A stretch of DNA of 64,000 nucleotides from an uncultured Chitinophaga sp. (lineage in GTDB: Bacteria > Bacteroidota > Bacteroidia > Cytophagales > Cyclobacteriaceae), in assembly GCA_902168205.1 (NCBI GenBank), contig CABHOK010000004.1, positions 62,001-126,000 of the forward strand, written 5' to 3'. The first letter of the stretch is position 1; each line of letters starts with the position of its first letter. Shown here in pieces: positions 11,871-43,075 of this stretch. The notes under the pieces are model-generated. The model ran no database searches, was not told where the DNA came from, and saw only the letters and a list, made by a program, of their open reading frames with translations. A program made the position numbers and the translations under genes.

Positions 11871-11886
11871 TCTGGTCTGATCGAAT

Positions 11887-19980: not shown

Positions 19981-20714
19981 GTCGGCTCCGTCTTATTGCC
20001 GGCCCAAATGGCTCAGGTAAATCTTCCATCTTTCAGCTTATTAAGGAGTTTAAAGAAAAGCAGAAGGTCATCCCCACAGGTCCATTTATCAACTCCGATC
20101 AGATCGAAAAGGAATTTAAAGACAAGGGCTATATTGAGCTTAGACTTTTTGGTATTGAATCTCCTCCGGCCTCGCTAATTTCCGATTACCTGAAAATATC
20201 AACGTTTAAAGATCCTTATGATGCAAAGGTAATCGTTGATCTTGTTGTGTTAAAAGATGGATATTTAAAACTAAAAGCAGAAAAGTCTTCACCATTAATT
20301 GGAATGATTGTGTCGGATTTGATAAGGGAATATCTTTTATCAAACGGTATTTCATTTACAATGGAAACAGTTTTCTCTCATCCAGACAAGCTTGAACTTA
20401 TTCGAAAAGCTATTGCCAAAGGCTATAAGGTATATCTATATTTCGTATCTACAGAAGATCCGCTTATCAACGTGAAACGTGTTGAGGGACGTGTAGCTGC
20501 CGGAGGTCATGATGTACCTTATAATAAGATTATCGAGCGATATGAGCGAACAATGAATAATCTGTATGAAGCCGTGAAGCTTTCTTACCGCGCCTATATT
20601 TTTGATAACTCAGGAAAGACAACCGTTAAAATTGCCGAGAAGGATAAAGATGGAACGGTATATATCGAAGAATCTGTTCCTGAGTGGCTACTTAAATATC
20701 TCAAAATCTCCTAA
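19977..20714 (+). CDS. zeta-toxin-like P-loop kinase
   Basis: 245 residues. Walker A GPNGSGKSS lies at residues 8-16, FINSD follows as the zeta-type acidic motif, then FTMETVFSHPDKLELIRKA, YKVYLYFVSTEDP, NVKRVEGRVAAGGHDVP and IIERYERTMNNL, the standard zeta/PezT-like series. Zeta toxins phosphorylate UDP-amino sugars and stop cell-wall synthesis. This copy has an insertion of about 60 residues between the P-loop region and the ETVFS motif. It is coupled to the small gene upstream. It may be a toxin or a related nucleotide kinase. Confidence 0.8.
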   Translation: MSRLRLIAGPNGSGKSSIFQLIKEFKEKQKVIPTGPFINSDQIEKEFKDKGYIELRLFGIESPPASLISDYLKISTFKDPYDAKVIVDLVVLKDGYLKLKAEKSSPLIGMIVSDLIREYLLSNGISFTMETVFSHPDKLELIRKAIAKGYKVYLYFVSTEDPLINVKRVEGRVAAGGHDVPYNKIIERYERTMNNLYEAVKLSYRAYIFDNSGKTTVKIAEKDKDGTVYIEESVPEWLLKYLKIS

Positions 20715-27194: not shown

Positions 27195-27639
27195 TTCATA
27201 GTCTCAAAATAGAGAAAAATCAGGGGGAATCTATACTTCTTTAACTAAATCAAAGAACCTCGTACTAGAGTGAGCTGTCACTTCGTGCCTCACAAATAAA
27301 AGGTAATGGTGTCTGCCTGGAAATGATGGCGCCTACATATAGTAATTTTTCATTATGAATGATACTTATTTGTAGGATGCAAAAACAAAAATACATTTTA
27401 GAACAGTTCTTCATCGCCCGCAACTTATTATACCGGACGCTTTAATCATTCTGGTGGCAGTAAATTTTCACATTACATCAGTAGAAGAACAAATACTTAA
27501 ACAGATAAAAGAAAATCGTAAGCATGAAAGGAGAATAAATCATAAGGTTGAAAAGACTTCTCATTCATCTTAAGCCGAAGAAGAACTTCAACTATATAAC
27601 TCTATATGGCGAATACAGATATTTATTCAATCATGCTGT
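27195..27639. other. 445-nt gap, no supported gene
   Basis: Contains the upstream region of the P-type ATPase. On the plus strand there are two short protein-like stretches (from an ATG at 27378 and a polar run near 27480-27570), but neither has a family signature or a start with a convincing leader. No terminator is evident. Confidence 0.4.
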
Positions 27640-27936
27640 TCAATGCTCTTTTATTCGTGACAGCTCGCTATATATAGATTGCGCCATAGCATTCAACTGC
27701 TGCTCTCGCGTGCCGATGTTCGAAAGATCAAGCGATTCACTCTGTTGTGTGAGTTGAAAATATAGGTCGTGGATGGAATCGTCCTCGGTATCCAGGCCGA
27801 TCATTGTAAGGATGGTTTCACTTAATTGTAAGTGGTAATCGCCTGCGCTTAGGCCCAGATTATTAAGGCCGCTTACAAGTTTGTTGTTAGTTAAATCATC
27901 TTTGATTAAAGAAATGATGAGATTTTTGTCCTGCAT
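27640..27936 (-). CDS. unknown partner of XRE module B
   Basis: 98 residues from the ATG at 27936 (a GTG seven codons earlier gives a longer form). Paralogue of the protein at 13964-14299 over nearly its whole length, with matching LIISLIK, GLNNLGL, MIGLDTEDD, LYFQL and SIYSEL elements. Acidic and helical, cytosolic. Head to head with the XRE gene at 28094, with 157 nt between the starts. Confidence 0.68.
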   Translation of the reverse strand: MQDKNLIISLIKDDLTNNKLVSGLNNLGLSAGDYHLQLSETILTMIGLDTEDDSIHDLYFQLTQQSESLDLSNIGTREQQLNAMAQSIYSELSRIKEH

Positions 27937-27952
27937 AACAGATGTATTTAAG

Positions 27953-28022
27953 TGCACAATTGTAATTTAAAAATGCATAATATGCATTATAAAATGCACT
28001 AAAAACTTTTAGTGGTGCATTT
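27953..28022. promoter_or_regulatory. operator array in the divergent gap, module B
   Basis: Several TGCA-centred sites: TGCAC at 27953-27957, the near-palindrome AATGCATAATATGCATT at 27972-27988, and a larger inverted repeat AAATGCACTAAAA (27992-28004) with TTTTAGTGGTGCATTT (28007-28022). This is what is expected of binding sites for the XRE protein controlling both divergent genes. Confidence 0.55.
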
Positions 28023-28093
28023 GGAGTACTGTTTCTGTTTGATTGCCAAATCCTAAATTTGATTGAAACGATTCACTGCTAGGATAAAAACGA

Positions 28094-28303
28094 ATGGCTT
28101 TTAAGGAAATAAATCGCATCAAGGTTGTATTGGTTGAGAAAAGAAGAACGAATAAATGGTTAGCAGAAGAGCTCGGCATGAACACGACAACTATATCGCG
28201 ATGGTGCCGTAATGACGTTCAACCTCCGCTGGAAACTCTTGTTGAAGTTGCACGATTACTTGACGTTGATATCAGGGAGTTGTTGGTGCCTACGAAGAAG
28301 TAA
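28094..28303 (+). CDS. small XRE-family regulator (module copy B)
   Basis: 69 residues, a single HTH: NKWLAEELGMNTTTISRWC then TLVEVARLLDVDIRELL. The RIKVVLVEKRRTNKWLAEEL start is the hallmark of a widespread Bacteroidota group found beside restriction and toxin-antitoxin genes. Paralogue of 13588-13800. It probably represses itself and its divergent partner through the TGCA-repeat array. Confidence 0.87.
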   Translation: MAFKEINRIKVVLVEKRRTNKWLAEELGMNTTTISRWCRNDVQPPLETLVEVARLLDVDIRELLVPTKK

Positions 28304-28398
28304 ATATATACTTTGAACAAAGCTCTAAAAAAGATAAATAAGGCTTAACCCGGATTTGGCTATATATACTATGAAAAATATTAAATACACCATCAAAG

Positions 28399-28431
28399 GA
28401 GCTCTGCATTAGGTTTAACCTAATCAAGCTC
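28399..28431. repeat. palindrome before the 75-residue gene
   Basis: ATTAGGTT (28408-28415), one centre base, AACCTAAT (28417-28424) is an exact 8-bp palindrome. GAGCT (28399-28403) and AGCTC (28427-28431) extend it outward past short bulges. It ends 3 nt before the start codon at 28435, so it could be an operator or an RNA hairpin that hides the start. Confidence 0.5.
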
Positions 28432-28434
28432 TTT

Positions 28435-28662
28435 ATGAAAAGACAAAGGCAAATGCAGAAGGCATTTGGAGTTAATGAATTCGGACTTGTTGATTTTCCT
28501 GTGAAGATTTCAAATATCCGGATATCAAGAATCATTTATGGTAATGAAAGAGGTTGCTCTTGGTGCTTCCCTCATGGATGGGAAACAGATAACTCAACCA
28601 TGTTTATCAACAGTCAGCGAAACTGGAAATGCTTCAGAAGAACAAAATGGAAATCCCTGTAG
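28435..28662 (+). CDS. small CxxCFPHGWE protein
   Basis: 75 residues. The conserved-looking core is RGCSWCFPHGWETDNS followed by a basic, aromatic tail (NWKCFRRTKWKSL). I have an impression of similar small Bacteroidota proteins with a C-x2-CFPHG(F/W)E core, but no assigned function. A strong terminator follows 7 nt after the stop and a palindrome precedes the start, so it is a self-contained unit. Confidence 0.6.
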   Translation: MKRQRQMQKAFGVNEFGLVDFPVKISNIRISRIIYGNERGCSWCFPHGWETDNSTMFINSQRNWKCFRRTKWKSL

Positions 28663-28665
28663 AAG

Positions 28666-28695
28666 AAAGGCCGGATTACTCCCGGCCTTTTCTTG
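28666..28695 (+). terminator. terminator after the small CxxC gene
   Basis: AAAGGCCGG, a 6-nt loop, then CCGGCCTTTTCTT. An eight-bp G+C-rich stem with a T-rich tail directly behind the stop at 28662. Confidence 0.85.
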
Positions 28696-28841
28696 ATTTT
28701 CAACTCAATAGTAAATTATCAGACGCCCGTTAACGTTGGGTTAATTGTCCTCACTGTGTCATGAATAAAGTTTGTACATTTCTCCACCCAATGCAGCAGG
28801 CGTTAAATATAGATTTTCTGGCTGCTAACGTACGGCTCCAA

Positions 28842-29267
28842 TTACCTCGCAGATTCTTTTTTAACTAACGAGGCCCAGGCACCCGTTGACCATAGCGCCC
28901 ATACAATAAGCACAGGTTGAAAGAATAATCGTATCAATCGTTTTTGATCGGTATCTAATCCAAAAGCATCGATGCCATTGGTGTATTGGGAAATGTTTCC
29001 AGGGAATACAAGGATAAAAAAAATGGCTAATGCAACCCCCACTTTATGTTTGTACTTAACCAAGAAGATCATACTTAAACCGAGTACTATCTCAACTATA
29101 CCCGATGACAGCACGACAAAATCCATAAAGGATTCATTGTTCGGTAGCCAACGCGGAACCTGTGCCTGAAATTCTTTACGTTGAAAGGTAAGATGTCCTA
29201 CACCGGCGAGCACCATAAATGCGCCAAGCAAGATTCTCATTACATTTTGAATTGTGGTGGTTTTCAT
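28842..29267 (-). CDS. DoxX-like membrane protein
   Basis: 141 residues from the ATG at 29267; the frame is open further upstream but without a plausible start. Four hydrophobic segments: VMRILLGAFMVLAGVGHL, VVLSSGIVEIVLGLSMIFL, VALAIFFILVFPGNI and LIRLFFQPVLIVWALW. DoxX/TQO-like small membrane proteins are of varied or unknown role, some in quinone or thiol oxidation. Single gene, left of the defence operon. Confidence 0.8.
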   Translation of the reverse strand: MKTTTIQNVMRILLGAFMVLAGVGHLTFQRKEFQAQVPRWLPNNESFMDFVVLSSGIVEIVLGLSMIFLVKYKHKVGVALAIFFILVFPGNISQYTNGIDAFGLDTDQKRLIRLFFQPVLIVWALWSTGAWASLVKKESAR

Positions 29268-29419
29268 GCCTATAAAAGAGAAATAATTTTCCGATAGGTA
29301 AGGTCGCCCCGATCCCTGAATTGGCAAAATGGTAATTTTAATTTTTAGAAATTTTCAGTGATGCATTGTTCTGATTTTTTCGTTAATGCCATGTCACTAA
29401 ATGAAAAAAAAGTTCATAA

Positions 29420-31231
29420 TCATATGGAGGCAGCACTTGACTTTTCAGTTATACTTTCGGCTAGTTTATTCCTCTTGTTAGCACTTAAATCAATTTCAAG
29501 GATCCCCTGGGCTTCATCGCAAAACCAATTCCATCGATCATTGATAGCTTTCACAGTCCAGGATTTCTGGTAAGTGTTCGATTTATAATCGTTGACAATT
29601 TTTTGTGTTATTAGGAATGAGGTGACTTTATCATCGTCATTCCGGTGAAACCCTCGACCATCGTAAGCAATCATCTTCTGATCTAACCCATAATTACGGG
29701 CATCTATATTTTTGGGGCCGCTCAGTAGAGTTAGATTTGCGCCTGAATTTATCCAATCTTCGATCCCCTCAATTTCCTCAACATAGCGCCATTCTTTGGT
29801 TTTCTCATAACCAACGGGTATAACATGTTCCACATGAATACTCTTATCTCCAATGGGCAGGTATTTAGGATTATCTTGCTGGTTGTACTCAATTAGATAC
29901 AAAAGGGGTTTACACCACGGTTCATTGTAAAGATCGTAGTTGAGCGCCTCTATCGCACGGTTCATCGTGTTATTTGAAACATCGAGCATATTATTTTCAA
30001 GCTCCTTTCTAATATATGGCAGAGGTCGATTTTCTTTCAGCCATTTAATTATGTTAAAGGACGTTTGCTTGATCTTTGACAGGGTGTTGCCTGCAATCCA
30101 ATTTATATAGTAGTATCGTCTGAAAACACTCAGGAACTCTTCATATTCCGGATAACCATTATGAAGAGCTGTCAGCACAATTGTGCGCCAATACATACTC
30201 CATTTGATATACCAGAACCCAAACATTAATGCGTCTTTGCGATTGTAAACATCGTCTCTATATCTCGTCACAAAGGCTTTAAAATCCGATATGACCGAGT
30301 TCGGGTCTCTGTCTTTAAACAGAATCACAAGTTCCTCGTACAACGATTGTCTAGGATTATCGCCAAGGAGATAGTATTCGTACATTACAAACAATTCATT
30401 CAAGCTTTCTTCAGTATCGATGGCAACTTGTTCGCAGTATTTCCAGTCATCCATAAACTGGTCTTCTTTCTGCTTCTTCAACTCCTGATCTGACTCGTAT
30501 TTCGCGTGGATCTTTCCGATTAAATAACTCTTGATCAAATCAGAATTGGAAAGATCTAACCCTCGTGCATTTAACACTTGGAACAATTTAATAGCAAAAT
30601 TTACCGACTGGCAGTCAATTCGTATGATCTTAACTTTATTAAACAAATAATTGATAAAACGACCAGCCTCGTCTTCTCCAATCTCATCTAGCTTTTCGTT
30701 GAAGAACGCAGCAGTGTTCATAAACTTATACTTCGGCTCCTCTTCAATTCGGACTTGTTTCTTGTATGGTCGCCTATTCTTGATGGAAGACTTCTCTTCA
30801 ATTACCAGATTTTGAAAATCAGTTTCATGATTTGAATGAGTTCTGAGCCTTAACCGTTCAAACTTATCCTTATACTTAATAGAATCTTTAATGATATCCG
30901 AATCCACAGACTCTGGATCTTCAATATCGCTATTAATGTTTGGAAAAAGGTCTCTATAAACACAAAGCATAATTACTAGAGTTGTCAAGCGCTGCTGACC
31001 ATCAACGACATCAAGGTAGCTTGATTTTTCCTCTGGCTTTGCCGTGATCACGGATCCTAGAAAATAGTTTTGATCTGCGTGATACGCCTCCATCAAATCT
31101 TCCCATAATTTTTCTAGTTGGTCATCTGACCATGAGTATGGGCGTTGATAACGAGGTATTTGATAAAGGGCATCTGTGTTGCCTAGTAATTGCTTAATGG
31201 TTAAGCTGAGGGGTTTAAAAATATCTTCCAT
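29420..31231 (-). CDS. DUF262-DUF1524 (GmrSD-like) nuclease
   Basis: 603 residues. N-terminal DUF262: YQIPRYQRPYSW and DVVDGQQRLTTLVIML (residues ~73-88), the ParB-like NTPase/nucleotidase motif series. C-terminal DUF1524: HVEHVIPVGYEK near residue 467, then ANLTLLSGPKNIDARN, the HNH-type His-Asn core. This is the layout of type IV restriction enzyme GmrSD and of SspE, which cleave modified or phage DNA and use NTP hydrolysis as a switch. It is the last gene of the six-gene minus-strand operon, 5 nt behind its neighbour. Confidence 0.88.
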   Translation of the reverse strand: MEDIFKPLSLTIKQLLGNTDALYQIPRYQRPYSWSDDQLEKLWEDLMEAYHADQNYFLGSVITAKPEEKSSYLDVVDGQQRLTTLVIMLCVYRDLFPNINSDIEDPESVDSDIIKDSIKYKDKFERLRLRTHSNHETDFQNLVIEEKSSIKNRRPYKKQVRIEEEPKYKFMNTAAFFNEKLDEIGEDEAGRFINYLFNKVKIIRIDCQSVNFAIKLFQVLNARGLDLSNSDLIKSYLIGKIHAKYESDQELKKQKEDQFMDDWKYCEQVAIDTEESLNELFVMYEYYLLGDNPRQSLYEELVILFKDRDPNSVISDFKAFVTRYRDDVYNRKDALMFGFWYIKWSMYWRTIVLTALHNGYPEYEEFLSVFRRYYYINWIAGNTLSKIKQTSFNIIKWLKENRPLPYIRKELENNMLDVSNNTMNRAIEALNYDLYNEPWCKPLLYLIEYNQQDNPKYLPIGDKSIHVEHVIPVGYEKTKEWRYVEEIEGIEDWINSGANLTLLSGPKNIDARNYGLDQKMIAYDGRGFHRNDDDKVTSFLITQKIVNDYKSNTYQKSWTVKAINDRWNWFCDEAQGILEIDLSANKRNKLAESITEKSSAASI

Positions 31232-31236
31232 TATAA

Positions 31237-31554
31237 TTAGGCTTTTAAAAGAACATCAATTGCATATAAATTAAGCTCCTCCCATTTTCCATGATCGGGT
31301 TCAAAATGCTCTTCCAATATTTCAACCCGCTTGACGCCTGATATTTTTGGTCGTTTAATGTAGTTTACCTCTGGCGATGTATGATGCCTCTCAATTAGGC
31401 CAATTACTGACAGGCCGTCAAATGCATCTAACAGGGAGGCATATGGGTGGAACAAGATAAACTTGTCGTCAGGAGTGTCTTTCATTTGGAAATTCACTTT
31501 CAGTCGATTTCTGATTGCATGTTCGAATGCTGCCAACATTTCTTTTTCATTCAT
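31237..31554 (-). CDS. stand-alone WYL-like domain protein
   Basis: 105 residues. AFEHAIRNRLKVNFQM, ILFHPYASLLDAFDGLSVIGL, KRPKISGVKRVEILEEHFEP follow the WYL fold order (PYxL-like strand, R-containing strand, closing RI-V helix-strand). WYL domains bind ligands and regulate CRISPR, BREX and other defence loci. No DNA-binding part is attached. The start overlaps the stop of the preceding gene by 4 nt, so translation is coupled. The fold call is by pattern only. Confidence 0.5.
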   Translation of the reverse strand: MNEKEMLAAFEHAIRNRLKVNFQMKDTPDDKFILFHPYASLLDAFDGLSVIGLIERHHTSPEVNYIKRPKISGVKRVEILEEHFEPDHGKWEELNLYAIDVLLKA

Positions 31555-32018
31555 AAATAGTGGGTTTTTATATTTTTATTTTTGAGCAATTCGTCAATCT
31601 GCCCGCCTTCTTTTCTATACCCCACCACCACTTCATCCGCAATTTCAATCATCATCTCATTTCTCTTTCGTGCAGTTTCTTCTGTTACACGCGTAACAGT
31701 TTCATCGAACGGAGTGATGATGAGAAGGCGACCTGCGTCAAGTGGTTTCTTAAATTCTGGTTCTATCTTCTTTTTTATGCCTCGCGCGAGTGCTAGGATG
31801 ATAGGTTGCGTTCCTTTCAGCAAGTAGTGCAGAACGTCTTTTTCGAGCTGACTATGGAAACCGCTGATAACACACGTGCCGTTATTTCTCTGTTCAATAG
31901 CCCAATCGTAACATTTCAATACCGCAGAGGCAGGGATTATTCGACTACACAAGAACGTCTTCTTTTTGCATACCAAAAGACCAGGATCACCAATTTTTTG
32001 TTTAATGAAATCTGACAT
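31551..32018 (-). CDS. DprA/SLOG-like Rossmann protein
   Basis: 155 residues. VISGFHSQLEKDVLHYLLKG is the GS/GF-type nucleotide loop of the SMF/DprA-like SLOG superfamily, followed by QPIILALARGI and LLIITPFDE strands. DprA loads RecA on single-stranded DNA; SLOG proteins more widely sense or process nucleotides, and are encoded in many conflict systems. This short form lacks the extra domains of DprA. Overlaps the next gene by 4 nt and is 7 nt behind the nuclease gene. Confidence 0.7.
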   Translation of the reverse strand: MSDFIKQKIGDPGLLVCKKKTFLCSRIIPASAVLKCYDWAIEQRNNGTCVISGFHSQLEKDVLHYLLKGTQPIILALARGIKKKIEPEFKKPLDAGRLLIITPFDETVTRVTEETARKRNEMMIEIADEVVVGYRKEGGQIDELLKNKNIKTHYL

Positions 32019-32025
32019 TGATTAT

Positions 32026-33051
32026 TTATTGAAGGCTTAGAAAATCAAGAGATAATCTAGTGGCCGGGGTTCCGTAAAGTTGATCATCTCCATCCCAAAC
32101 CAAGTGAATACTTCGATCCTGTTCGATATACTCTTTATACCATTCGTCCGCACCGTCTAATGGTGACTCTATCACTAATACAAGCCGCGCATCTGGTTTG
32201 TTTTGTAAAAATCGATACTCATACAACTGACTTATTCCTTTTCTAATTTGTGTGCGAAGATTTGAGGCATCGGTAGATTTCATTTCAAATATAAAATCAT
32301 GGTCAATTGTCGTTGCAAGATCGATGAATTGATTTGCCTTAGGAATCCCGCCCGAATTTCTTATCCGGCTTGCTACTAAGTTGACCAGTCTTTTATGGCT
32401 GTTATGTGATCTTTCGGCCTTAGCCTGATTGCGATACACAGTTACAACATGATCAGCTTGCGATATTCTTTCAGATGCTTCTTGATACGCTTGAAGATTA
32501 TCATGTATGACGATGGGCTGACGAATATCCTTAAATTCAATGATTGGAATAGTCGTGACAGCTTCTTGTCGAATATAGTATCGGTTTTGATTATAGTTAA
32601 CGACTTCCAAACTTCTGAGCCAGGCTAATACAGTACTCACTCTTCTTGGTATGATCGATGAACCCATCTCAGGCGATGAAATTGAGCTTAGGAAATCAAT
32701 AATCTGCTGTTGTGTTAACCCTTCAGGATGATTCTCTAATTGAAACAAAAGCTTCTGATATAGGTTAAGATTAACGACAGACTCCAAGACGATCGGATTC
32801 GTAGGATGTGGATCGTTGGTTACGGATTGACCTCGCTCCGTGATGGTCGCGTGGTTTTTGTCGTTTCTGATAAAACCAAGCATTTCTGCTGCTTTTCTAT
32901 AATACCGGCCTTGTCTAGAATCCCCCTGGATTCCTTCAATTTGATTGGCAATATCAAGGTCGGTTGTAGCTCCATTTGCAACGGCTACCGTTGCCGCAAT
33001 AACAGAATCAAACCGATCTGCCTGGGGAAAATCTTTGGTGTGAAGCAACAT
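32026..33051 (-). CDS. winged-helix + PD-(D/E)XK-like restriction nuclease
   Basis: 341 residues. The N-terminal ~170 residues contain two winged-helix-like units (ATTDLDIANQIEGI, GLTQQQIIDFLSSI, RRVSTVLAWLRSLEVV). The C-terminal part has FIDLATTI, then FIFEMKS (E and K of the ExK pair near residue 255) and GISQLYEYRFLQ, the core of a restriction endonuclease fold. It probably cuts DNA for the system and may bind a site through the winged helices. 12 nt separate it from the methyltransferase gene. Confidence 0.75.
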   Translation of the reverse strand: MLLHTKDFPQADRFDSVIAATVAVANGATTDLDIANQIEGIQGDSRQGRYYRKAAEMLGFIRNDKNHATITERGQSVTNDPHPTNPIVLESVVNLNLYQKLLFQLENHPEGLTQQQIIDFLSSISSPEMGSSIIPRRVSTVLAWLRSLEVVNYNQNRYYIRQEAVTTIPIIEFKDIRQPIVIHDNLQAYQEASERISQADHVVTVYRNQAKAERSHNSHKRLVNLVASRIRNSGGIPKANQFIDLATTIDHDFIFEMKSTDASNLRTQIRKGISQLYEYRFLQNKPDARLVLVIESPLDGADEWYKEYIEQDRSIHLVWDGDDQLYGTPATRLSLDFLSLQ

Positions 33052-33063
33052 ACGAGCTTATTA

Positions 33064-36000
33064 TCATTCTACATTCGTTCTGTCAATTCGATATTTTATA
33101 TCATAATTTATAATATAGTCGACTTCTTTTTCGTCAAAGGTGTAGTGAGTCGCGAGTATCTTATCTATTTCATCGAGGATTGACTTCGACTTACCAACAA
33201 AAAAGTTTGTTTCTTCGACTGTTGAGCCATCCTTTCGCTTACGATCTACCTTAATTGCATTTTTTTCCAGGTCTTTTAAGAGTTTTTTTCCTAATCGCTT
33301 GAGCTCGTTATCTGTCATAATTGAATCAGGGAATGGAAAAAAGCTAATGTCTGATTTCGTGACGTGGTATGTGTCAGAAACTTCAATCCAGTACAGGTAA
33401 TACAGAGAGGATGAGAACAGGCTGATGAAATGATACTGTGTCGCGTTCGGCACTTTTAGTTGCTTATATTCATTAGATAGTGGCCTATCTAAGCACTTGC
33501 GAAAATAACGGCCACCACTATGATAATAGATTTCGTCCTTATATTCCGCAAAGGGATAGGTAGTAAGGTTTTTGAACTTCTCCAACTTTGTCCAGATACT
33601 CAACGAAATTTTGTCTTTTATTTTTGGTAACGTATTTAGCTTACTATCATAACTTGATCCAACGTACTCCAGATTGCGAAATACAAAATCTCTTGCCTCT
33701 GAATTCCATCTATTATAGCCTGTAGTGAACACTTTTGAACCAGGTTTAAGTGCTTTTTCGAAAATCAAAATTGACAAATTCATATCAGCACCAGTAAACA
33801 ACTTCCCTGGTCTTACAGCGAAATTTGATACATGAAGCTGACTTGATTGATTCGATATTAAGCGCATCAAAGGGTTCATACGAGGAGTTGATACAGAGCT
33901 GATTGGCACTATCATTCCGATTTGTGACTTGGGATGTGCAATTGATATTGATCTCTCTATCACATATGAAAATAAATTACCAGTGGACATCGTGACATAG
34001 TCCTTCAAAATGTAGCTTTTTTTGACATCACTGTACTCAACATATGGAGGGTTGCCTATGATGACATCGAAGCCATTTTTGTCATGTAAAATTTCGTAGA
34101 ACTCGGCAAACCAATGGAACGGTTGATGTGTGTCAAGCCATTTTGAATACTTAATACTTGGATTCTGCTTGTGAAACAATTGATTGAGTTCATGATTAAG
34201 TTCCTTAAGTCGAATAAGTAAATCATCTTTCGCGATTTTAAATTGGCTGTAGTCGTCCCCATGAGTTAGTTGAATTTCTTTATATCTTCTATACGAGCGA
34301 GAAACAATTTCACACTTCTCATCAATAGCAGGCTGCGCAAGCACTCCCTCGATTGTATATTCTAAACCTTTCCGAAGCTCAGTTTGATTACCAAATCCAA
34401 TCAACGTATTTCCCGATCGAATATTAAAATCAATATCCGGCAACGGTTCGAGCCCAAGATTGGGTTTGGAATAATCCGCATCAACAGTCGTAACTAGTTT
34501 TAAGAAAAGTCGAAGTTTTGCAATCTCCACTGCCTCTTTCATAATGTCTACACCGTAGAGGTTGCATAGAATAATGCTTTTGTAAATGAAGTACTGAAGA
34601 TTAGGGTGCTGCGGACTTTGAATGTTTTCAAGCACTTCACGGAAGTATTTGTACTTGTTGTTGCAGGTCGATTTCTTTTCCTTATTTACCCTGTCCTCGT
34701 CTTCAACGAATGCACGCATACGCATAATGCAAGCCTCATACAACGGCTCAAGAATATTCATGGCTGCAAAGAGAAACGCGCCTGAGCCACAGGTGGGATC
34801 AATGATAGTTACGTTATTTAACGCTTTGTAGAAAAGCCTGAGAAAGTCGGTATCGTTTGTTGATTGCGCCAGGTCTTGTACAAACTGACTGATATCCAGA
34901 TTATACGTGATAAAATCGTTAATGCATTTAACCTCGCCATTGGCAATCTTTGTTTTTATTTCCTGATACCGATTTCTTCTCTCAACGACTTCACGCCATA
35001 TTTCAGTAGGCAACGCAAATTCCGATGGCGCTGATTTGCTCCAATCAGTGCGTTTTGATACATCTTTTACTCCAGCCTCGATCCCGCGCGGCAACGGCAA
35101 TTCTACTCCCTTCTTTACTGCAGGATATATGTAAGCATCACCCGACTCGCGAATCATCGTCCAGATTTCCCCGTCATCTGCAAATGCTTTAGGATATTGA
35201 CGTTTTGTTTCATCAAACAGATACGGCAGGATGCAATTTTTACTGATGTAGTTGGTGATGTCTTCCTTCGTGTAGTACGCGCCCATCTGTGCGCGGTCGT
35301 TAATGTACTTTTCGAAAATATAGCCAATCACATCCGGGTTAATGTCTTTTCCGGAAGCTGTATGCCGGGTGTCGAGATGCCATTCCCAATCATCAAAGAA
35401 ATCAAAAATTCGTTCGAATGCTTTATCATCGATATCGATGTCTGGGTTCGTCTTCTCAATTTCATGTTCTTCGAACAATCCACCATTCAGGTACGGTATG
35501 CGCCCGATTTCCTTTTTAACATCATCCGAGTGATCGGCAGCACCCAGGCCTTTATGAAACAGCACGCGAAGAAAGTTTTTATAGAACGAGTAAAACTTGC
35601 CTTTGCCTTTTTTCTCCTGGCACAAGTCAAGCTTGTCGCGCAGATAGTTTTTGTTTTTGTCAAGAAAACCTTTCTTCTGAATGAAGTAACAGAACATCAA
35701 GCGGTTTAGCATGAGTGAAGCATACCACTCTTTATTCACTTTCTCCTCAATGCCTTTGATGAATTTGAGAAAGGCGGTATGTTCCTTACTAAACTTCTCG
35801 TAAAACTGTTTTGTAACACGTTCGTTGTTCTGCTGAAAGTTTTCTGTTACACGCTGGGTAACATCGACAATGGTAATGTTTTCCTCTTCGTCCAGTTCAA
35901 AGAAGATCCCAGCCGCGCGTTGAAAAAGCAATTCGGGTTCCTGCGAAACAAGGTATCGCGTCTCGCTGATCTTGGCAGGCTTGCCCATTTCGCGAACCAC

Positions 36001-36306
36001 CAGTTGCCAGATCTGTTCTGTACTTTTTGAATCAACAAAAATGATCAGGTGTTCCTGGAACAGCTTTGTAACTTTTGCTTCAATTTTTTTACGAATGGCA
36101 TATTCAGGAATGAGTCCTTCCTGATCAGGGCTGCACAATAATATCTTGAAACCATGCTTTTCGGCAATGCCTTTTAAAATGAATGTTTCAGAATCGATAA
36201 CAATGGGCTGGTTGGTTTTGTCCTTGTTCCAGCCCATTTCGTTAAATAACTCAGGGAACTTGAATTCTTTTACGTACGCAGAAAATGCTTTTTTATTTAG
36301 CGCCAT
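33064..36306 (-). CDS. Eco57I-like class I DNA adenine methyltransferase
   Basis: 1080 residues. SAM-binding motif I IDPTCGSGAFLFAA lies near residue 505 and catalytic motif IV NPPYVEYSD near residue 752, the gamma-class N6-adenine pattern. The ~500-residue N-terminal helical part (FVxEFKFPELFNEMGW onward) and the target-recognition-like C-terminus are typical of the large helicase-associated methylases. No nuclease motif is obvious in the protein, so cutting is likely done by neighbouring gene products. Start is 2 nt behind the helicase stop. In the operon it would mark self DNA. Confidence 0.9.
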   Translation of the reverse strand: MALNKKAFSAYVKEFKFPELFNEMGWNKDKTNQPIVIDSETFILKGIAEKHGFKILLCSPDQEGLIPEYAIRKKIEAKVTKLFQEHLIIFVDSKSTEQIWQLVVREMGKPAKISETRYLVSQEPELLFQRAAGIFFELDEEENITIVDVTQRVTENFQQNNERVTKQFYEKFSKEHTAFLKFIKGIEEKVNKEWYASLMLNRLMFCYFIQKKGFLDKNKNYLRDKLDLCQEKKGKGKFYSFYKNFLRVLFHKGLGAADHSDDVKKEIGRIPYLNGGLFEEHEIEKTNPDIDIDDKAFERIFDFFDDWEWHLDTRHTASGKDINPDVIGYIFEKYINDRAQMGAYYTKEDITNYISKNCILPYLFDETKRQYPKAFADDGEIWTMIRESGDAYIYPAVKKGVELPLPRGIEAGVKDVSKRTDWSKSAPSEFALPTEIWREVVERRNRYQEIKTKIANGEVKCINDFITYNLDISQFVQDLAQSTNDTDFLRLFYKALNNVTIIDPTCGSGAFLFAAMNILEPLYEACIMRMRAFVEDEDRVNKEKKSTCNNKYKYFREVLENIQSPQHPNLQYFIYKSIILCNLYGVDIMKEAVEIAKLRLFLKLVTTVDADYSKPNLGLEPLPDIDFNIRSGNTLIGFGNQTELRKGLEYTIEGVLAQPAIDEKCEIVSRSYRRYKEIQLTHGDDYSQFKIAKDDLLIRLKELNHELNQLFHKQNPSIKYSKWLDTHQPFHWFAEFYEILHDKNGFDVIIGNPPYVEYSDVKKSYILKDYVTMSTGNLFSYVIERSISIAHPKSQIGMIVPISSVSTPRMNPLMRLISNQSSQLHVSNFAVRPGKLFTGADMNLSILIFEKALKPGSKVFTTGYNRWNSEARDFVFRNLEYVGSSYDSKLNTLPKIKDKISLSIWTKLEKFKNLTTYPFAEYKDEIYYHSGGRYFRKCLDRPLSNEYKQLKVPNATQYHFISLFSSSLYYLYWIEVSDTYHVTKSDISFFPFPDSIMTDNELKRLGKKLLKDLEKNAIKVDRKRKDGSTVEETNFFVGKSKSILDEIDKILATHYTFDEKEVDYIINYDIKYRIDRTNVE

Positions 36307-36308
36307 GC

Positions 36309-39300
36309 TTATTGATTAGACAATCCAAGAGAACAAATAATTTGAGGCTCAAGCGAAGTTTGCTCATCCTCGTTGATGATTGAAAGCTTATCTTCTTCAC
36401 GCAGCGATACTACCAGGAACGCTAACTCATCATCTGAAATTCCAGCCTTCAACTGACGATTCAGCGTTTCGCGACCGAATTCTTTTAAGGGGAATTTGTA
36501 GATATCGTCAATAGCTTTCTTGAGGGCATCAGTAACAAAGAGCTGGCCGTCATATCGGTCGCAATAAGCCTTGAGCCTTGTATATGTTCTGTATTTAACA
36601 CCGTTCTTCTTGCCTAGCGATCCACCGGTTGATTTCTCCTCTTCTTTAATATGCTCGACCCCCGCCTTAACAAGCTCGTGATGGTTAGTTAGTTTAAATT
36701 TCGGTTCCGTATGAGGCGTACAATGGGCGGCTCGTAAAATTGTGAGCTGCGACTGTGTGACAAGCTTTCCTGAACTATCAATCCATGCCAACACATCATT
36801 TTCATGACTTGTACGCGTATATACGATTACACCTTCTTTGGCTGAATCTTCTTCATTTCGCTTCGTGGCATAGACCACTGGCGGTAGATCAGGAATCAGT
36901 TTCAATAGTGTCGGATCTGCATCAACTGCATTTTTCCAAATCTGATAAGCATAGGATGCTAGGTCAACTTCGCCATCATTGTCGTCATCATCCAGAATTC
37001 CGGATTTTTCATTATACAGATCGGCAATATTGATTGGATCACCTTCGAAGAACGTTTCGTCAGCACCAACTACCTCTGCATTTTGCCGTATCCGCTGTCC
37101 AAGTCGTCTACGCAATTGGATGATTTGTTCAATTCCATCTTCGGGTAAGAATGAATAACAAAGTATCTGCTCGGCCTTTTGACCGATCCGGTCTACACGA
37201 CCGGCACGTTGAATAAGCCTGATGATTGCCCACGGAAGGTCGTAGTTCACAATGATGTGCGCGTCTTGCAAGTTTTGACCTTCGCTCAGTACATCCGTTG
37301 CAATCAGAACCCGTAAATCATTTTTGTCTTTTACAATGTGCTGCTTTTTATTGCTGATCGGACTGAAGCGATGCGCGATGGATGTGGGATCTTCCGAATT
37401 ACCAGTCACACTTTCGAGCTTATCCACACCCCTCGTTTTGAGGTTTTTCGCGAGATAATTTGCTGTATCTGCAAACTGCGTGAATACTAAGACCTTTTCC
37501 TGTCGATGGGTATTTGATATCAGCATATGCAAGGCATTGAGCTTTCGATCTGCGACTTGATTCCAATCCTCACCAAGTTTCAGAATCGTGATAAGCTCTC
37601 GACCATCGCTGATTAGGTGTTTAACAAGGTCATTTGTAAACAACTGCGGATCAATCCAATCAAAGTGGCGTGCCATGCTTTCACCTGCAAAGAATTTGTA
37701 CAAGCTTCCTGCCCGATCCAAATACAATTTTTCATCGAGCAAAAGATTGAGCTGATTATCATCGTTGTCGTTGTCCGGATCGCTGTCGTCAATAAAATAA
37801 TCAAGATTATGAGATATATCTTTCCCGATAGGAAGTTTCAGCTTGTTCTGAATAGCATAAACAAAGACGAAGTTCCGCATAATGTGCCTGCTGATCGAAA
37901 GCAGGAATGAGCTTCCACTGCTTTCTAACCTTTTAAAAAGATTGGTTCTGCAAAAGCCCATTAGTCTGCGCCCCGCGCGTGAAAGATTTTGCATAATGAC
38001 CTCTTCTTTGTCGGATGCTTTTACCAAAGGTTTTTTCGCCAGGTAATTTCCGAGACCGTATCTGGGAAGCTCAAGGTGGTTGATAACATCAACCACCTTC
38101 GGTGTGTACAGTCTTGCATATTGATCTTTCGGATCATTCACGTTAAACTCATATTCTACCTTCTTAGGAATTCTGTCGGGAAACGGAAGCTTTGTACCAT
38201 CCTTCAATTGAAGGTATTTGCGACCATTCGTGTTGTCAATCAAAGCGTAGTTCTCCTTGATGAAGCTTCTTGTTCTACGAACAAGATAGAGTCGCATGAG
38301 TTCACGCCAGTCGTCAGCGTAGTCACTTCGTTCAAATGCTTTAATGCTCCTGATAAACGTTTCCGTATGCCTCGCCTCAAATTGAATGCGTCCGCCAATT
38401 GCTTCAATATATCTTTCGGGCATGATTCCCAAGTCACGATCGTCACTGATGAATAGCCTTAGCTGATTGGAAAGGTCAAGGTATGATTTGTTGTAAGGCG
38501 TAGCCGAAAGAAGAATCACCTTACTTTCGTTTTCCGTCAGATATTCTTTAATTGAATTGTATCGACTTCCCAAGTCATTCCTTAGATTGTGGCTTTCGTC
38601 AATGATAACAAGCTTAAAACGCTTCAATTCTGGAAGGCTTCTTTGTACTTCTCCAATGGAAATTACTTGCGCCTTCAAATCATAACGTTCGATATACTCA
38701 TACCACATTGATTTGAGGTTCGGAGGGCATATAATCAATGTTGACCAGAAATTACTTTCTTCGAACATCTTTGCAATGGCGCAGGCAGTAATTGTTTTTC
38801 CCAACCCAACCACATCTCCGATCAATACACCATCGCGTTTGTCCAACTTCTTTGCAGCAATCTTTACAGCAGCCTGTTGAAATTCAAAAAGCTCATCACG
38901 GAAGACTTTCGGGAGACGGTATTCATTGAGGCCTGCACGGGCCTCCTGTGATAGGTGATAAGCGATTTTCAAATATATATGAAAAGGCTGACGCAATTTG
39001 TCAGTTGCCCATGAGGTATCGATGATCTCAATCAGCTCCTGTGTGATGTCGATGCACCAACGATCATTCCATCGGTCGTCAAACCATTTCACAAGCTTAG
39101 CGGCTGCATCTTGCTCCAGGACATCAACATTAAGCTCGCCCTGCTTTGCGAGTCCAGCAAGAGTAAGGTTACTGCTACCCACAAAGCCTTCCACACGTTG
39201 ACGCTCTTTCAGGTGACACAAATAGAGTTTAGCGTGGAGGGGGTGGCGAAGATGTAGTTTGACAACAACTTTCTCCTCCTTCATTTGGCTACTTAATTTT

Positions 39301-39671
39301 CGTAGCGCACGCTCATCAGCCTCGGTAGGTACACCAATTGTGAGCTGATGCTTGAAGCTCTCGGCCAATTTCTTCTTGAGGCGAAGAGCTTCTGCCTGGT
39401 CAATGAAATAGTCTTCGCCATGCTTTGAATAATGGTGGAGAACGTCTTGAGGCATCTGTTGCATACCAACCAAAAGTCTGCATATCCTGTGTACACTCTC
39501 TTCTTTTTCGAGAACAGGAGCACCAGAGAGCAAATCAATTTTGTCGGTGACTTGTTTCCATCCTCGCAGGTTAAAATATCCTACGCAGAAATCTGTTCGT
39601 AATGAATGCTCAAGACATTCATTTAAGCCTTTGGTAAGGTGGTTCTCAATGTTGTCGTATATCTTCGGCAT
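36309..39671 (-). CDS. PLD-domain SNF2-family helicase
   Basis: 1120 residues, first gene of the operon. N-terminal phospholipase D-like nuclease half: LHAKLYLCH near residue 150 and GSSNLTLAG near 165 (H-K-and N-S residues of one HKD motif). The helicase core follows: GDVVGLGKT (Walker A, ~289), VIIDESHN (~357), SATPYNKS, and the C-terminal VLSEGQNLQDA / QRAGRVDRIGQ (~827). It is expected to translocate on double-stranded DNA. PLD-SNF2 proteins paired with large adenine methylases occur in several restriction-like systems related to, but distinct from, DISARM. Confidence 0.92.
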   Translation of the reverse strand: MPKIYDNIENHLTKGLNECLEHSLRTDFCVGYFNLRGWKQVTDKIDLLSGAPVLEKEESVHRICRLLVGMQQMPQDVLHHYSKHGEDYFIDQAEALRLKKKLAESFKHQLTIGVPTEADERALRKLSSQMKEEKVVVKLHLRHPLHAKLYLCHLKERQRVEGFVGSSNLTLAGLAKQGELNVDVLEQDAAAKLVKWFDDRWNDRWCIDITQELIEIIDTSWATDKLRQPFHIYLKIAYHLSQEARAGLNEYRLPKVFRDELFEFQQAAVKIAAKKLDKRDGVLIGDVVGLGKTITACAIAKMFEESNFWSTLIICPPNLKSMWYEYIERYDLKAQVISIGEVQRSLPELKRFKLVIIDESHNLRNDLGSRYNSIKEYLTENESKVILLSATPYNKSYLDLSNQLRLFISDDRDLGIMPERYIEAIGGRIQFEARHTETFIRSIKAFERSDYADDWRELMRLYLVRRTRSFIKENYALIDNTNGRKYLQLKDGTKLPFPDRIPKKVEYEFNVNDPKDQYARLYTPKVVDVINHLELPRYGLGNYLAKKPLVKASDKEEVIMQNLSRAGRRLMGFCRTNLFKRLESSGSSFLLSISRHIMRNFVFVYAIQNKLKLPIGKDISHNLDYFIDDSDPDNDNDDNQLNLLLDEKLYLDRAGSLYKFFAGESMARHFDWIDPQLFTNDLVKHLISDGRELITILKLGEDWNQVADRKLNALHMLISNTHRQEKVLVFTQFADTANYLAKNLKTRGVDKLESVTGNSEDPTSIAHRFSPISNKKQHIVKDKNDLRVLIATDVLSEGQNLQDAHIIVNYDLPWAIIRLIQRAGRVDRIGQKAEQILCYSFLPEDGIEQIIQLRRRLGQRIRQNAEVVGADETFFEGDPINIADLYNEKSGILDDDDNDGEVDLASYAYQIWKNAVDADPTLLKLIPDLPPVVYATKRNEEDSAKEGVIVYTRTSHENDVLAWIDSSGKLVTQSQLTILRAAHCTPHTEPKFKLTNHHELVKAGVEHIKEEEKSTGGSLGKKNGVKYRTYTRLKAYCDRYDGQLFVTDALKKAIDDIYKFPLKEFGRETLNRQLKAGISDDELAFLVVSLREEDKLSIINEDEQTSLEPQIICSLGLSNQ

Positions 39672-40084
39672 AAAGGACTTTTGAGTAAGCCCGAATCAAC
39701 TAACAATAAGCGACAACCAATGACAGTCAGTAACTTAGAATACAGGATCGGGATTTTAAGTCAAAGCCCATCCGCCATACCCATTGCTGAGTACATACGG
39801 ATGGGCTCCAAGCTCTAAAATATTGGGAATATGGCTTATTTAAAAGGATTTTAACCGGATTCTATCTTGAAATGCCTCTTTTCCTCATTTTTGTCTCTTT
39901 TAAACCTTTGGATTTAGTTGTTAATCACCGGCTTTATTGGTTTAACAAGAGCAATAGCTTTTAACTCACATCAAAATTCAGAGAGATAAACGCAGTTGAT
40001 TTCGGTGCACGTCATCTTTTCAATAATCTGCCCAAAGGATCTGATTACACGAATCCAACATCATCACCATCAGACTGGGTAACA
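39672..40084. other. 413-nt gap upstream of the operon with a long hairpin
   Basis: Contains an exact 10-bp inverted repeat AGCCCATCCG (39765-39774) / CGGATGGGCT (39798-39807) with a 23-nt loop. It could be the terminator of the SF1 helicase gene, whose stop is at 40085, though it lies 280 nt downstream and has a weak T tract. A plus-strand frame near 39965-40080 reads like protein (GARHLFNNLPKGSDY) but I cannot assign it. The promoter of the six-gene operon should lie here. Confidence 0.45.
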
Positions 40085-43075
40085 TCAATCATCAAACAAC
40101 GTTTTCTGGTAAACACCTCCCTTTACCTTGTTAACCAGTTCGCGGATATATTCGTAGTGCTTCACATACTGATTCGGAACACGAATCATTTTTACATCCT
40201 TCTTCTCGGCAAGCTCCATCTTGAGCTTGTCGGAGGTGATGCGTTTCTTATGGTAATAATGCTCTGCACCATCAATCTCAAATATCACCTTAGGTGCTTT
40301 CCCAATATATATTACTCCATCAAACTCCTTACGATTAACGGATGCATTTCCGATCTCTTCCGGAAATACGTCTGTTACTTTTACATTCCGTTCGAACCTG
40401 GTGCCCTGAACACTGCAATAGTGGCTCATGGTCTTATAAAATTCATCTTCAAACACCGAGTTGTTTGAAAGGCCGATCGTAAACTTACCGGCGGTGCTTT
40501 CACTAACTTTGGTCGTGCCATTTTGCTCCACGTATTCAATCAGTGCGTATAGATCATCGTCCTTTCTGGATAGTATATCTATAGCTCGTTTGTCGGCTAC
40601 AACTACCAGTCTCTCCCGTGCACGGGTAACACCTACATTGATCAGTTCGCTGTTATTCTTTACCCAATCGTATGTCTTCCCGGTGGTCTGGCTGGAGATC
40701 GCTGTTGATATGATGATGGTGCTGTTCTCCCGACCCTGAACTTTATGAATTGTTCCGCAGTCAACCGAGAGGTCAATTTTACCTTGTTCTTTGGCCGCCC
40801 GCAGATAATGATTCAACACCTCTTCCTGGTTTCTGAATGGAGTAAGGATAAAGACATCACGCAGTTGATTGCCTTCGATATACTTTACAATTTCCTGCGC
40901 CTCCTCGATGGCGGAATTTCTTCTCTTTACATTATGGTTATTTACATTCAGCAGTGTAACTTCTCCTATGGTGCTGATCATTGAAAGATTTAACCTGTTT
41001 TCATAAAATCGCATATTTGAGTAATTGATGATTTTACTTCCGCAGCGGTAGTGAAAACTCAGCAATATATCTCTGGAAATATTGTCGATCTGTTTATAGG
41101 TTGATAGAATCGAATTGTTGTAATAATTGTATGGCTCGCTGATTCCAAACCGCGCCATTAATTCATCGTTTCTCTTCTCCTCGAATGCAACAATGGGTTT
41201 TAGCTGATTGGTATCGCCAATCAGTACCATATTCTTGCACTTGGAAACCGGGATGAGACTGGTGGCGATATCACACTGCCCCGCTTCATCGATCGCGAGC
41301 AGATCGAATTTAAATTTTCTTCCGAGGTGTCGGGAGGATATGTTAGTGGTGAGTATTACGGGGAACACACGCGTGAATCTTTCCATGTTTTGGTCATCTC
41401 CGATCCACTTGTTGAACTCGGTGACTTGAGAGCGTTCGTCATCGATATGAGCGATGTCAATAAGTTGAGTGTAATCTTTCGTTTTAAGACGTTTCAGACA
41501 CCGCAGCGATTCAAAATAAAAAAACTGAAGCAATTGATGGTTGCCTTTAATAACGTCATAAATGTTATTCAGATCATCCGTTACAATTTCCGGGATTTCA
41601 TTGAGCCGTTGTTCGAGCTTCTGCTTTTCGCGCTCAAGCAGGTGGTTACTTCCTTTGGATAGTAACCCGTTGACAAACTCAAGATTCTGCGATAAGTCAA
41701 TTCTGTTTTCATAGTTGTTGAGCCGATCGACAAGGCGCTTATTATTTTCTTTCGATTTCTCTTTCAACTTCGATAACAGCTCTTCCTTTGGTGTGTCCTT
41801 CGTCTCAAATGCATATAGTGTTTTGATTGTTCTCAGTGCTTCTGTCACGTACTGAGCGTTGCCAAGCCTGATTACAGGGAGGATGATCTCCTTCTCTCTA
41901 TACTTGCCTAAAACCAGCTTATCGCGGACGCCATCAATAGGTACGTTATTGTTGGATGAGATCAACAGCGTTTTGCCATTAGCAAGACAATTCACAACAA
42001 TGTTTAATAGTGTTTGCGTTTTTCCTGTTCCCGGTGGCCCCTGCACATACGTAACCGGAAATTTCAACGCATTGTAGATCGTGCGAAACTGGTCGATGTT
42101 CACATTGCGATCATACAACACGATAAGCGGCTCTTTTCTGTTTTTTCGATCCAGCAAGGAAAGGTTTTGAAAAAAAGCTTTTAAAGGAATTTGAATGTCG
42201 TTGCTCTGATGATCAGAGGCAATGGAATCGTAAATCCCGGAGATATCTATCTGTCTATAACCGAGCACAACTATTTCGGGTCTTGTGTTGAGCAGTTCAC
42301 CGTGTCTGAAATTCTCACGTAAAAGCTGTATAGCTTCTTCTTTGTTCGCCTGGTACATCGCCTCAAAATGGGCAGGACTTATTTCTGAATAATACGACAA
42401 AGAATACCGGGCATTGTCAACATAAAAATTAGCATTGAACTGTGTCGCGGCTCCCAGATGCAGCGTTTTCCTGACTGGGTCAAACTCAAGTTTCCTGAAC
42501 GCAATCACAAATTTACCTTTCGACTCCAGGTCAATTGAAAATTCACTTAAGGCAAGTTGGTAATCATAGAAAGTCTTGTACTCGTTATGATAGATCTGCT
42601 TGATGATGGACCGATGCTGATCGTCCGACAGCTGATATTCTCTTCCTTTTTCAAATGTTGTTAAATCCAGGCCAGGGATTAGATAGGCCTTATGAAGAAA
42701 GGGGTCGTGGTTCGCCTTGTAGCATTCAAGGTAATAATTCAGAATACTATTGTCGTACCGGTTGAACGCGTAGGCTTGCAGACTGTCGTCATCAAGTTTC
42801 GTTACCAGCGCCTCCGGTACATCATAGCAAGAGAATCTCAGGATTTCAGCGGATTGAATTCCGGACATGAATATTTTCTTGTTGATGATGGGGGCGTCCT
42901 TTGTAACATTGAACATGTTTACCCACAACTCCCCATTTGCATTGATGTCAAGAATGCTTATCCAGAAAACCGTGATGTCTCCGCTTTTGTTTTTATAGGT
43001 GATGTTAAGATATTTTCCTTCGCGAATAGCCTTACCAATAAGAACTGTGATTTTCTTGTCGATCATCGCGTTCAA
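40085..43075 (-). CDS. SF1 helicase with Vsr-like (DUF2726/DUF559-type) nuclease end
   Basis: 996 residues. Walker A GPPGTGKTQTLLN lies near 347, Walker B LAIDEAGQCD near 596 and GDTNQLKP just after; TIHKVQGREN and NVGVTRARERL are SF1 (UPF1/DNA2-like) motifs V and VI. The last ~80 residues carry FEIDGAEHYYHKKRITSDKLK, the D-x-H pattern of Vsr-like endonuclease folds. Proteins of this build are common in defence islands. It is on the same strand and 413 nt upstream of the six-gene operon, so it may be a partner or a separate system. Confidence 0.85.
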   Translation of the reverse strand: MNAMIDKKITVLIGKAIREGKYLNITYKNKSGDITVFWISILDINANGELWVNMFNVTKDAPIINKKIFMSGIQSAEILRFSCYDVPEALVTKLDDDSLQAYAFNRYDNSILNYYLECYKANHDPFLHKAYLIPGLDLTTFEKGREYQLSDDQHRSIIKQIYHNEYKTFYDYQLALSEFSIDLESKGKFVIAFRKLEFDPVRKTLHLGAATQFNANFYVDNARYSLSYYSEISPAHFEAMYQANKEEAIQLLRENFRHGELLNTRPEIVVLGYRQIDISGIYDSIASDHQSNDIQIPLKAFFQNLSLLDRKNRKEPLIVLYDRNVNIDQFRTIYNALKFPVTYVQGPPGTGKTQTLLNIVVNCLANGKTLLISSNNNVPIDGVRDKLVLGKYREKEIILPVIRLGNAQYVTEALRTIKTLYAFETKDTPKEELLSKLKEKSKENNKRLVDRLNNYENRIDLSQNLEFVNGLLSKGSNHLLEREKQKLEQRLNEIPEIVTDDLNNIYDVIKGNHQLLQFFYFESLRCLKRLKTKDYTQLIDIAHIDDERSQVTEFNKWIGDDQNMERFTRVFPVILTTNISSRHLGRKFKFDLLAIDEAGQCDIATSLIPVSKCKNMVLIGDTNQLKPIVAFEEKRNDELMARFGISEPYNYYNNSILSTYKQIDNISRDILLSFHYRCGSKIINYSNMRFYENRLNLSMISTIGEVTLLNVNNHNVKRRNSAIEEAQEIVKYIEGNQLRDVFILTPFRNQEEVLNHYLRAAKEQGKIDLSVDCGTIHKVQGRENSTIIISTAISSQTTGKTYDWVKNNSELINVGVTRARERLVVVADKRAIDILSRKDDDLYALIEYVEQNGTTKVSESTAGKFTIGLSNNSVFEDEFYKTMSHYCSVQGTRFERNVKVTDVFPEEIGNASVNRKEFDGVIYIGKAPKVIFEIDGAEHYYHKKRITSDKLKMELAEKKDVKMIRVPNQYVKHYEYIRELVNKVKGGVYQKTLFDD

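Follow-up and report, generated by a model that had tools for sequence, protein, structure and literature searches.

The 64,000-nucleotide stretch of an uncultured Chitinophaga sp. genome analysed here (the window; contig CABHOK010000004.1, positions 62,001 to 126,000) carries six consecutive minus-strand genes, called A to F, at window positions 29420 to 39671. The initial annotation, drawn from the sequence alone, had taken them for a dedicated defence operon, and on re-derivation the six genes, their order, strand and gaps were all as it had described. Comparison with other loci suggests a looser organization. We consider it rather likely that the locus is a modular restriction-modification (R-M) type pair, A-B, resembling DISARM and BREX, that carries an exchangeable second line of defence and is not a fixed six-gene system.

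Organization of the operon

From its upstream end, the operon consists of A (36309..39671, 1120 aa), a PLD nuclease domain fused to an SNF2-type helicase; B (33064..36306, 1080 aa), an Eco57I/PglX-type adenine methylase; C (32026..33051, 341 aa), the cargo of the slot between B and D, with DUF7226 and a PD-(D/E)XK-like half; D (31551..32018, 155 aa), a DprA/ShosA-like SLOG protein; E (31237..31554, 105 aa), an orphan that overlaps the end of D by 4 nt; and F (29420..31231, 603 aa), a GmrSD protein (DUF262-DUF1524). The successive gaps are 2, 12, 7, -4 and 5 nt. From this spacing we infer a single transcript, as had been proposed. The tight gaps are what speaks for it, as promoter-like patterns (33 observed vs 27.3 ± 5.9 in shuffles) and terminator-like patterns (11 vs 8.2 ± 3.1) both lie near chance level.

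Helicase-nuclease A and methylase B

The domains first proposed for A, an SNF2 helicase with a PLD nuclease, were recovered by Pfam, with SNF2, Helicase_C and PLDc_2 all exceeding their cut-offs; A also matches the NgoFVII PLD family over the Pfam cut-off (30.7 bits). The motifs LHAKL, GSSN, GKT and IDESHN are identical in all 24 aligned A homologs, and the PLD motifs among them, HAKL (residue 146) and GSSN (165), are encoded at 39168..39236 on the minus strand. Likewise, the reading of B as an Eco57I-like methylase holds, with 98.6 bits for Eco57I in Pfam. Its best PADLOC profile, PDLC03628 (REase_MTase_IIG, type IIG), matches over the full length (residues 1-1076, 936.5 bits), and the S-adenosylmethionine (SAM) motif TCGSGAF and the NPP motif are invariant in 23 B sequences. 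These domains support the logic of a methylase working with a helicase-nuclease.

Conservation along B is uneven. Residues 781-1020 (33247..33966, minus strand) form its least conserved stretch, with a mean majority share of 0.39-0.52 per 60 residues vs 0.54-0.88 elsewhere, and are therefore its probable target-recognition domain. The N-terminus of B is a separate alpha/beta domain in the predicted model (mean predicted local distance difference test score, pLDDT, 78). No conserved nuclease motif (D...ExK) was detected in this region among 22 homologs, the model returned no Foldseek match at E<=0.001, an empty result that is little proof, and B had no match in the Protein Data Bank (PDB). Lacking such a motif or fold match in B, we regard cutting by A as more likely than cutting by B.

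No published activity for any close homolog of A or B was found in the open-licence literature. The B homolog on the Synechocystis plasmid pSYSX was considered as a candidate for slr6095 or for the GAm6AGGC enzyme, and the idea was dropped: in PMC7296061 and PMC6560206 slr6095 belongs to a type I system that has a different motif.

The SLOG protein D

D has no Pfam match. Its AlphaFold2 (AF2) model, built from 35 sequences, adopts a SLOG/DprA-like fold (pLDDT 95.6), and Foldseek returned 14 matches at E<=0.001, of which ShosA came first (2.5e-8) and the other 13 were DprA chains. At the sequence level D matches DprA at E about 0.02 and the PADLOC profile PsyrA at 1.8e-7. The DprA/SLOG nature first suggested for D is thus upheld, with ShosA as its nearest fold. 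DprA homologs are described as the antitoxins of ShosTA, SyrTA and RqlHI (PMC9122126). In the window operon, neither a phosphoribosyltransferase nor a RecQ-like partner of D was detected with Pfam, PADLOC or NCBIfam.

Genes C, E and F

C, a winged-helix, nuclease-like protein as first proposed, matches DUF7226 (44.9 bits, over the Pfam cut-off); its putative nuclease half is defined by a PD-(D/E)XK-like motif seen by eye, and no nuclease model matched. A winged helix joined to a nuclease domain is also the plan reported for Mrr (PMC12707154). For E, said to be WYL-like, no WYL match was obtained in Pfam, PADLOC, NCBIfam or the PDB; E matched no family in the first three at the limits used and nothing of note in the PDB. 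Its weak BLASTP match is to the N-terminus of H, a helicase encoded upstream of A (E 0.002, 25% identity). The DUF262-DUF1524 architecture of F was borne out, as GmrSD_N and GmrSD_C both exceed Pfam cut-offs and EHVIP (EHxxP) can be read in the sequence, which are features of a GmrSD type IV enzyme. The best PADLOC profile of F is HEC-06 (163.7 bits), described as an Hma-embedded candidate with reported antiviral activity (PMC12988326). GmrSD enzymes are reported to act on DNA with modified cytosines, and BrxU to be one of them that adjoins BREX (PMC12707154).

When 67 loci were searched with tblastn at 1e-5, the only matches to C and E came from the genome that contains the window (L053). Beyond L053, F had one weak match (L011; 27%, covering 39% of F), on the opposite strand and ~6 kb from D. 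Among 292 genomes C occurs in two, its own and, as a partial copy, G014, and E in one; in viral contigs neither was found. C and E are, as far as these sequences go, nearly private to the window genome. Since C, E and F do not recur, they do not belong to any conserved set of six genes, and the dedicated system first envisaged is not borne out. Separate occurrence, named beforehand as grounds for refuting such a system, applies to C, E and F but not to A-B(-D). A separate observation concerns a Picosynechococcus plasmid, in which a DUF262 protein weakly related to F adjoins A on the other strand (L098:2349-4484).

Recurrence of A-B(-D)

A-B(-D) recurs in the same order in several phyla, and the family ranges over Bacteroidota, Balneolota, Ignavibacteriota, Thermodesulfobacteriota, Fibrobacterota, cyanobacterial plasmids and one viral contig. 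We found D at 52 loci in the genome contig collection and in 13 of the 296 genomes of the phylum sample. B (E<=1e-60) is present in nine of these 296, eight of which also have D; the ninth, G288, is 84% complete and has B at a contig end. A (E<=1e-100) was detected in 10 of 292 genomes, eight of which also figure among the B genomes; in the remaining two, G043 and G247, A stands next to a divergent methylase, so that a methylase adjoins A in all ten. Counting the window, 22 of 66 loci have A upstream of B on the same strand; the 66 are mostly loci fetched with D as bait, many of them on short contigs, and the presence of D there is by construction. Genes in these loci were called by a longest-open-reading-frame script, which may merge genes or miss starts.

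Full-length B was found on plasmids as well. Three of them, Pelobacter pPRO1, Synechocystis pSYSX and a Picosynechococcus plasmid, have A upstream of B, and in the two cyanobacterial ones VapC stands between A and B and DUF2513 follows B. In pSYSX, the A-VapC-B genes adjoin a ubiquitin-like conjugation cluster with multiubiquitin, E2/UBC, ThiF and DUF6527 genes (L096:12793-15414). D was also present in three viral contigs. One of these (L131, from IMG/VR, 3410-12756) carries A-B-D followed by a 741-aa AAA_13 protein (570 bits), a family that we take to be of the PrrC type.

Six other genomes of the window's genus contained neither B nor D, although the search for D had no positive control. This absence suggests horizontal acquisition, and we regard the window locus as probably acquired in this way. 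When an empty site was sought in the same six genomes, the flanking proteins were absent or scattered and no insertion boundary was found.

A cargo slot between B and D

In 25 fetched loci B (>100 bits) lies upstream of D on the same strand. Between one and six genes of at least 80 aa separate the two in 18 of them, and none does in the other seven. We assembled 80 proteins from between B and D or, where B is missing, from the position nearest upstream of D. Pfam matches at E<=1e-4 included HATPase_c_4 (11), Bro-N (8), YhcG nuclease (6), Fic (6), AlbA_2 (4), cytidine deaminase (4), and DarT, Macro, NYN and PDDEXK_3 (2 each); the tally from which these are taken lists 25 of 54 families. In PADLOC, up to 13 of the 80 match the candidate PDC-S13, up to 11 match S04 and up to 8 match S02. 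In two loci (L010 and L084) DarT occupies the slot together with a macro protein.

When neighbour types were mapped onto a tree of 49 D proteins, at least 17 changes were needed, vs a mean of 22.9 after shuffling, and none of 200 shuffles was as low. This tree leaves out D proteins shorter than 130 aa and those of L085, L091 and L094, and strong support is limited to 4 of its 46 inner branches. In one supported group, eight closely related D proteins stand next to B, Fic and deaminase-type genes. The cargo, judged from this tree, is partly inherited and often replaced. GIY-YIG-like reading frames, seen by eye, run into D in three further places (L002:780-1895, L021:77-850, L041:9674-10465), and nucleases of this kind may use the position as well.

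Cargo-D also occurs without B, and none of ten proteins taken from six loci of this kind was an R-M protein. Further upstream proteins of the B-less loci were scanned as a group (32 of 46, the 14 short or edge ones being left out); the one type I restriction match among them, an HsdR C-terminus, lies upstream of D in L029. In L087 a type I HsdR is found downstream of D. Elsewhere A-B is decayed. In L006, residues 1-31 of A are joined to residues 961-1078 of B, with cargo and D kept; in L043, residues 1-143 of A are followed by a D piece, with no B, the cargo kept and a D of 134 aa. B is reduced to its last 38-52 residues in L016 and L042. That cargo and D remain in L006 and L043 where A-B is largely deleted favours a tie between D and cargo. 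A strict antitoxin role of D is weakened by the seven B-D loci with no cargo between and by the macro partner that accompanies DarT.

D stumps and probable mosaics

The cargo lies just behind a D stump in five other loci. In L006, L010 and L082 the B stop is followed by the first 33-42 codons of D, then the cargo, then a whole D, and the ATG of the stump overlaps or adjoins the B stop, which is the arrangement of intact B-D pairs. The B of L006 is a 3' piece only, and the L010 stump is frameshifted. A 27-codon D stump follows a GIY-YIG gene in L005, and L043 has, in order, a 15-codon inner D piece, a Fic gene, a 37-codon stump, a deaminase-type gene and D. When 188 open reading frame (ORF) starts were compared with the 5' segment of the local D, six in these five loci scored 31-86, and the next scored 15.5. 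The window counterpart of the stump segment, as defined from the other loci, is D codons 20-42 (31893..31961, minus strand). In the window the B stop overlaps an ATG that reads M-I-I-S-S before C (33053..33067, minus strand); this resembles D starts and is too short to count, but is a possible tiny D relic. Weaker D-like fragments in L004, L025, L030, L040 and L047 were taken as leader or chance matches. D is split in L048 and L050, and L007 has a second, decayed D downstream of the whole one (9441-9695).

The D genes behind deaminase-type cargo (L005, L043, L082) appear to be mosaic. Over the first 80 alignment columns their mutual identity is 81-87% and their identity to the resident type of D (L004, L006 and L011) is 64-73%; over columns 80-350 the two values are 86-93% and 86-96%, respectively. 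A site-pattern test gave a Fisher p of 1.9e-4 for L005, L043 and L004 and of 0.0004-0.04 for six other overlapping triples, which are not independent; four control triples with the breakpoint at 80 gave 0.23-1.0. Taken together, stumps and mosaic genes point to recombination within the 5' part of D as the probable route of cargo entry, as deduced from the mosaic in three D genes. A cargo gene with a new D start would insert into D, with a crossover in a conserved stretch of D, and a stump and a mosaic would be left. The pattern would fit ordinary homologous recombination and a dedicated mechanism alike.

As a tentative idea, on balance doubtful, D could serve as a docking site at which immunity genes are taken up by an integron-like cassette mechanism. 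A cassette combining a defence or toxin gene with a fresh D 5' end would enter the 5' part of D and rebuild a whole D; the old start would be left as a stump, translational coupling would be kept, and cassettes would be stackable, as L043 may illustrate. The D protein would control whichever cargo is present.

Proposed function and alternative readings

On the reading of an A-B pair with exchangeable cargo, B would methylate adenines in host DNA as a self-mark, with the target specified by its hypervariable region, and A would move on unmarked DNA with its ATP-driven SNF2 motor and cut it with the PLD domain. D, which usually follows A-B and closes the B-D slot, would sense DNA or a nucleotide and may hold back or license the cargo, by analogy with DprA-like antitoxins. 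The slot and the place after D would take interchangeable defence or toxin genes. In the window, C and F would target phage DNA not stopped by A-B, for example modified DNA, which would amount to a layered defence. Recurrence of A-B(-D), variation of the cargo and, in five other loci, its position behind D stumps are what the compared sequences establish.

Several observations weigh against this reading. Joint working of C, E and F with A-B is presumed, as is restriction by A-B itself. Of the 13 genomes with D, five are without B. D was not found in G043, G247 and G288, in a search without positive control, nor beside A-B in the three plasmids with A upstream of B, and a search for D in plasmids returned none. 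As for the exchange at D, stumps occur in only five loci with three cargo kinds, the mosaic is confined to one cargo kind, and the window is without a clear stump. The mosaic breakpoints (60, 70, 80) were picked after the identity comparison was known, and the first 80 columns of D vary more in other pairs as well (58% vs 72-80% for L008-L016).

Cargo and D could instead form an autonomous, self-spreading toxin-antitoxin-like module in the manner of ShosTA or PsyrTA, with A-B no more than a frequent host. The fold of D, closest to ShosA, its PsyrA match, the many B-less loci with cargo-D, the decayed A-B of L006 and L043, the B remnants of L016 and L042 and the clustering of cargo kinds on the D tree are all consistent with such a module. 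Nevertheless, D is present in eight of nine B genomes and seven of 25 slots are empty, which indicates that D goes with A-B even without cargo; DarT brings its own macro-domain partner, and D also lies near a type I system in L029. We hold an autonomous module to be unlikely. Another alternative, in which B suffices on its own as a type IIG restriction enzyme-methylase and the adjoining A is unrelated to it, accords with the full-length type IIG profile and the separate N-terminal domain, but is quite improbable given the methylase beside A in all ten A genomes and the lack of a conserved D...ExK motif in that domain; the missing Foldseek match adds little weight.

A further reading would make A-B(-D) a degenerate form or a variant of DISARM or ARMADA, in view of the pairing of an SNF2-type helicase with a PglX-like methylase and of DrmD among the best profiles of A (134.9 bits). 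Yet A scores far below the curated DrmD cut-offs (134.9 vs 610; 89.2 vs 950) and B far below that of the PglX models (65.9 against 500), and no YprA-family or DUF1998 gene was found among the window proteins scanned with Pfam and PADLOC, the other loci not having been scanned for YprA. This makes such a variant very improbable. The likeness to DISARM noted at first, with drmA and drmB absent, agrees with our results: neither was among the matches listed for 10 window proteins (24660-43075; Pfam, PADLOC), and the DrmA-type signal among them is a cross-match of the A helicase domain (61.2 bits). As for the dedicated six-gene system under SLOG and WYL control, the tight spacing of all six genes speaks for it; since A-B-D recurs without C, E and F and no sign of WYL was obtained, we give it hardly any credence. 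The modular A-B(-D) reading remains the one that we prefer.

Neighbouring genes in the window

H (40085-43075, minus strand, 996 aa), the superfamily 1 (SF1) helicase (AAA_11/AAA_12) whose N-terminus weakly resembles E, lies upstream of A across a 413-nt gap, and its C-terminus is weakly DUF2726-like. In 67 loci no relative of H was found beside A-B, and H is probably a separate defence gene. Near 14-18 kb the GC content of the window falls to 0.34-0.36. A GHKL-type ATPase-like protein of 655 aa (15639-17606), a short UvrD-like piece (15193-15567) and a short RhuM-like piece (12913-13290), all on the minus strand and identified by eye, are encoded in this part, which may be a second cluster of conflict genes. 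Two small proteins, of 111 aa (13964-14299, plus strand) and 105 aa (27640-27957, minus strand), look alike by eye; the latter has no family match in Pfam, PADLOC or NCBIfam. A 245-aa P-loop protein (19977-20714, plus strand) is zeta toxin-like by eye.

Significance and comparison with known systems

If the proposed organization is correct, a family of R-M-like systems gains a third, DprA-like gene and a site for exchangeable cargo, and DprA-like proteins a further tie to defence. Reading the intervals between B and D would be a systematic route to immunity genes, and the model of exchange of a second-line toxin or nuclease inside restriction operons is testable.

The pairing of an SNF2/BrxHII-like helicase with a PglX/DrmMI-like methylase recalls class I DISARM and ARMADA, both of which are described as including YprA-family helicases (PMC12458937). 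A PLD nuclease is present in DISARM too; here it is fused to the helicase, and D and the cargo slot are additional. With BREX the locus shares a PglX-like methylase with a variable region, while neither PglZ nor BrxC was among the PADLOC matches listed for the proteins scanned. In restriction enzymes of the NgoAVII/CglI type a helicase works alongside a PLD nuclease, and A matches the NgoFVII PLD family; in A, however, helicase and nuclease form one protein, and the methylase is of another type. D shares its predicted DprA/ShosA fold with ShosTA, SyrTA/PsyrTA and RqlHI, although their phosphoribosyltransferase or RecQ-like partners have no counterpart in the window operon. F has both GmrSD domains, as in BrxU, and HEC-06 as its best profile, but sits in another host operon.

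As regards the slot, DarTG2 is reported to be embedded in the type I R-M locus of the RptR island (PMC12255303) and PrrC in EcoprrI (PMC12707154), and embedding has been used to find defence candidates in restriction operons (PMC12988326). In the family described here, variable defence or toxin genes lie inside the system, whose restriction role is deduced, in 18 of the 25 B-D loci. The RptR island and EcoprrI likewise hold toxin or nuclease cargo between restriction genes, as the DarT-macro pair in this slot does, but the host here is A-B-D and the probable exchange point is D, not a restriction gene. Defence genes inside R-M operons are already known; no description of A-B-D as a cargo-host family, or of D as an exchange point that anchors the slot, was found in the open-licence literature.

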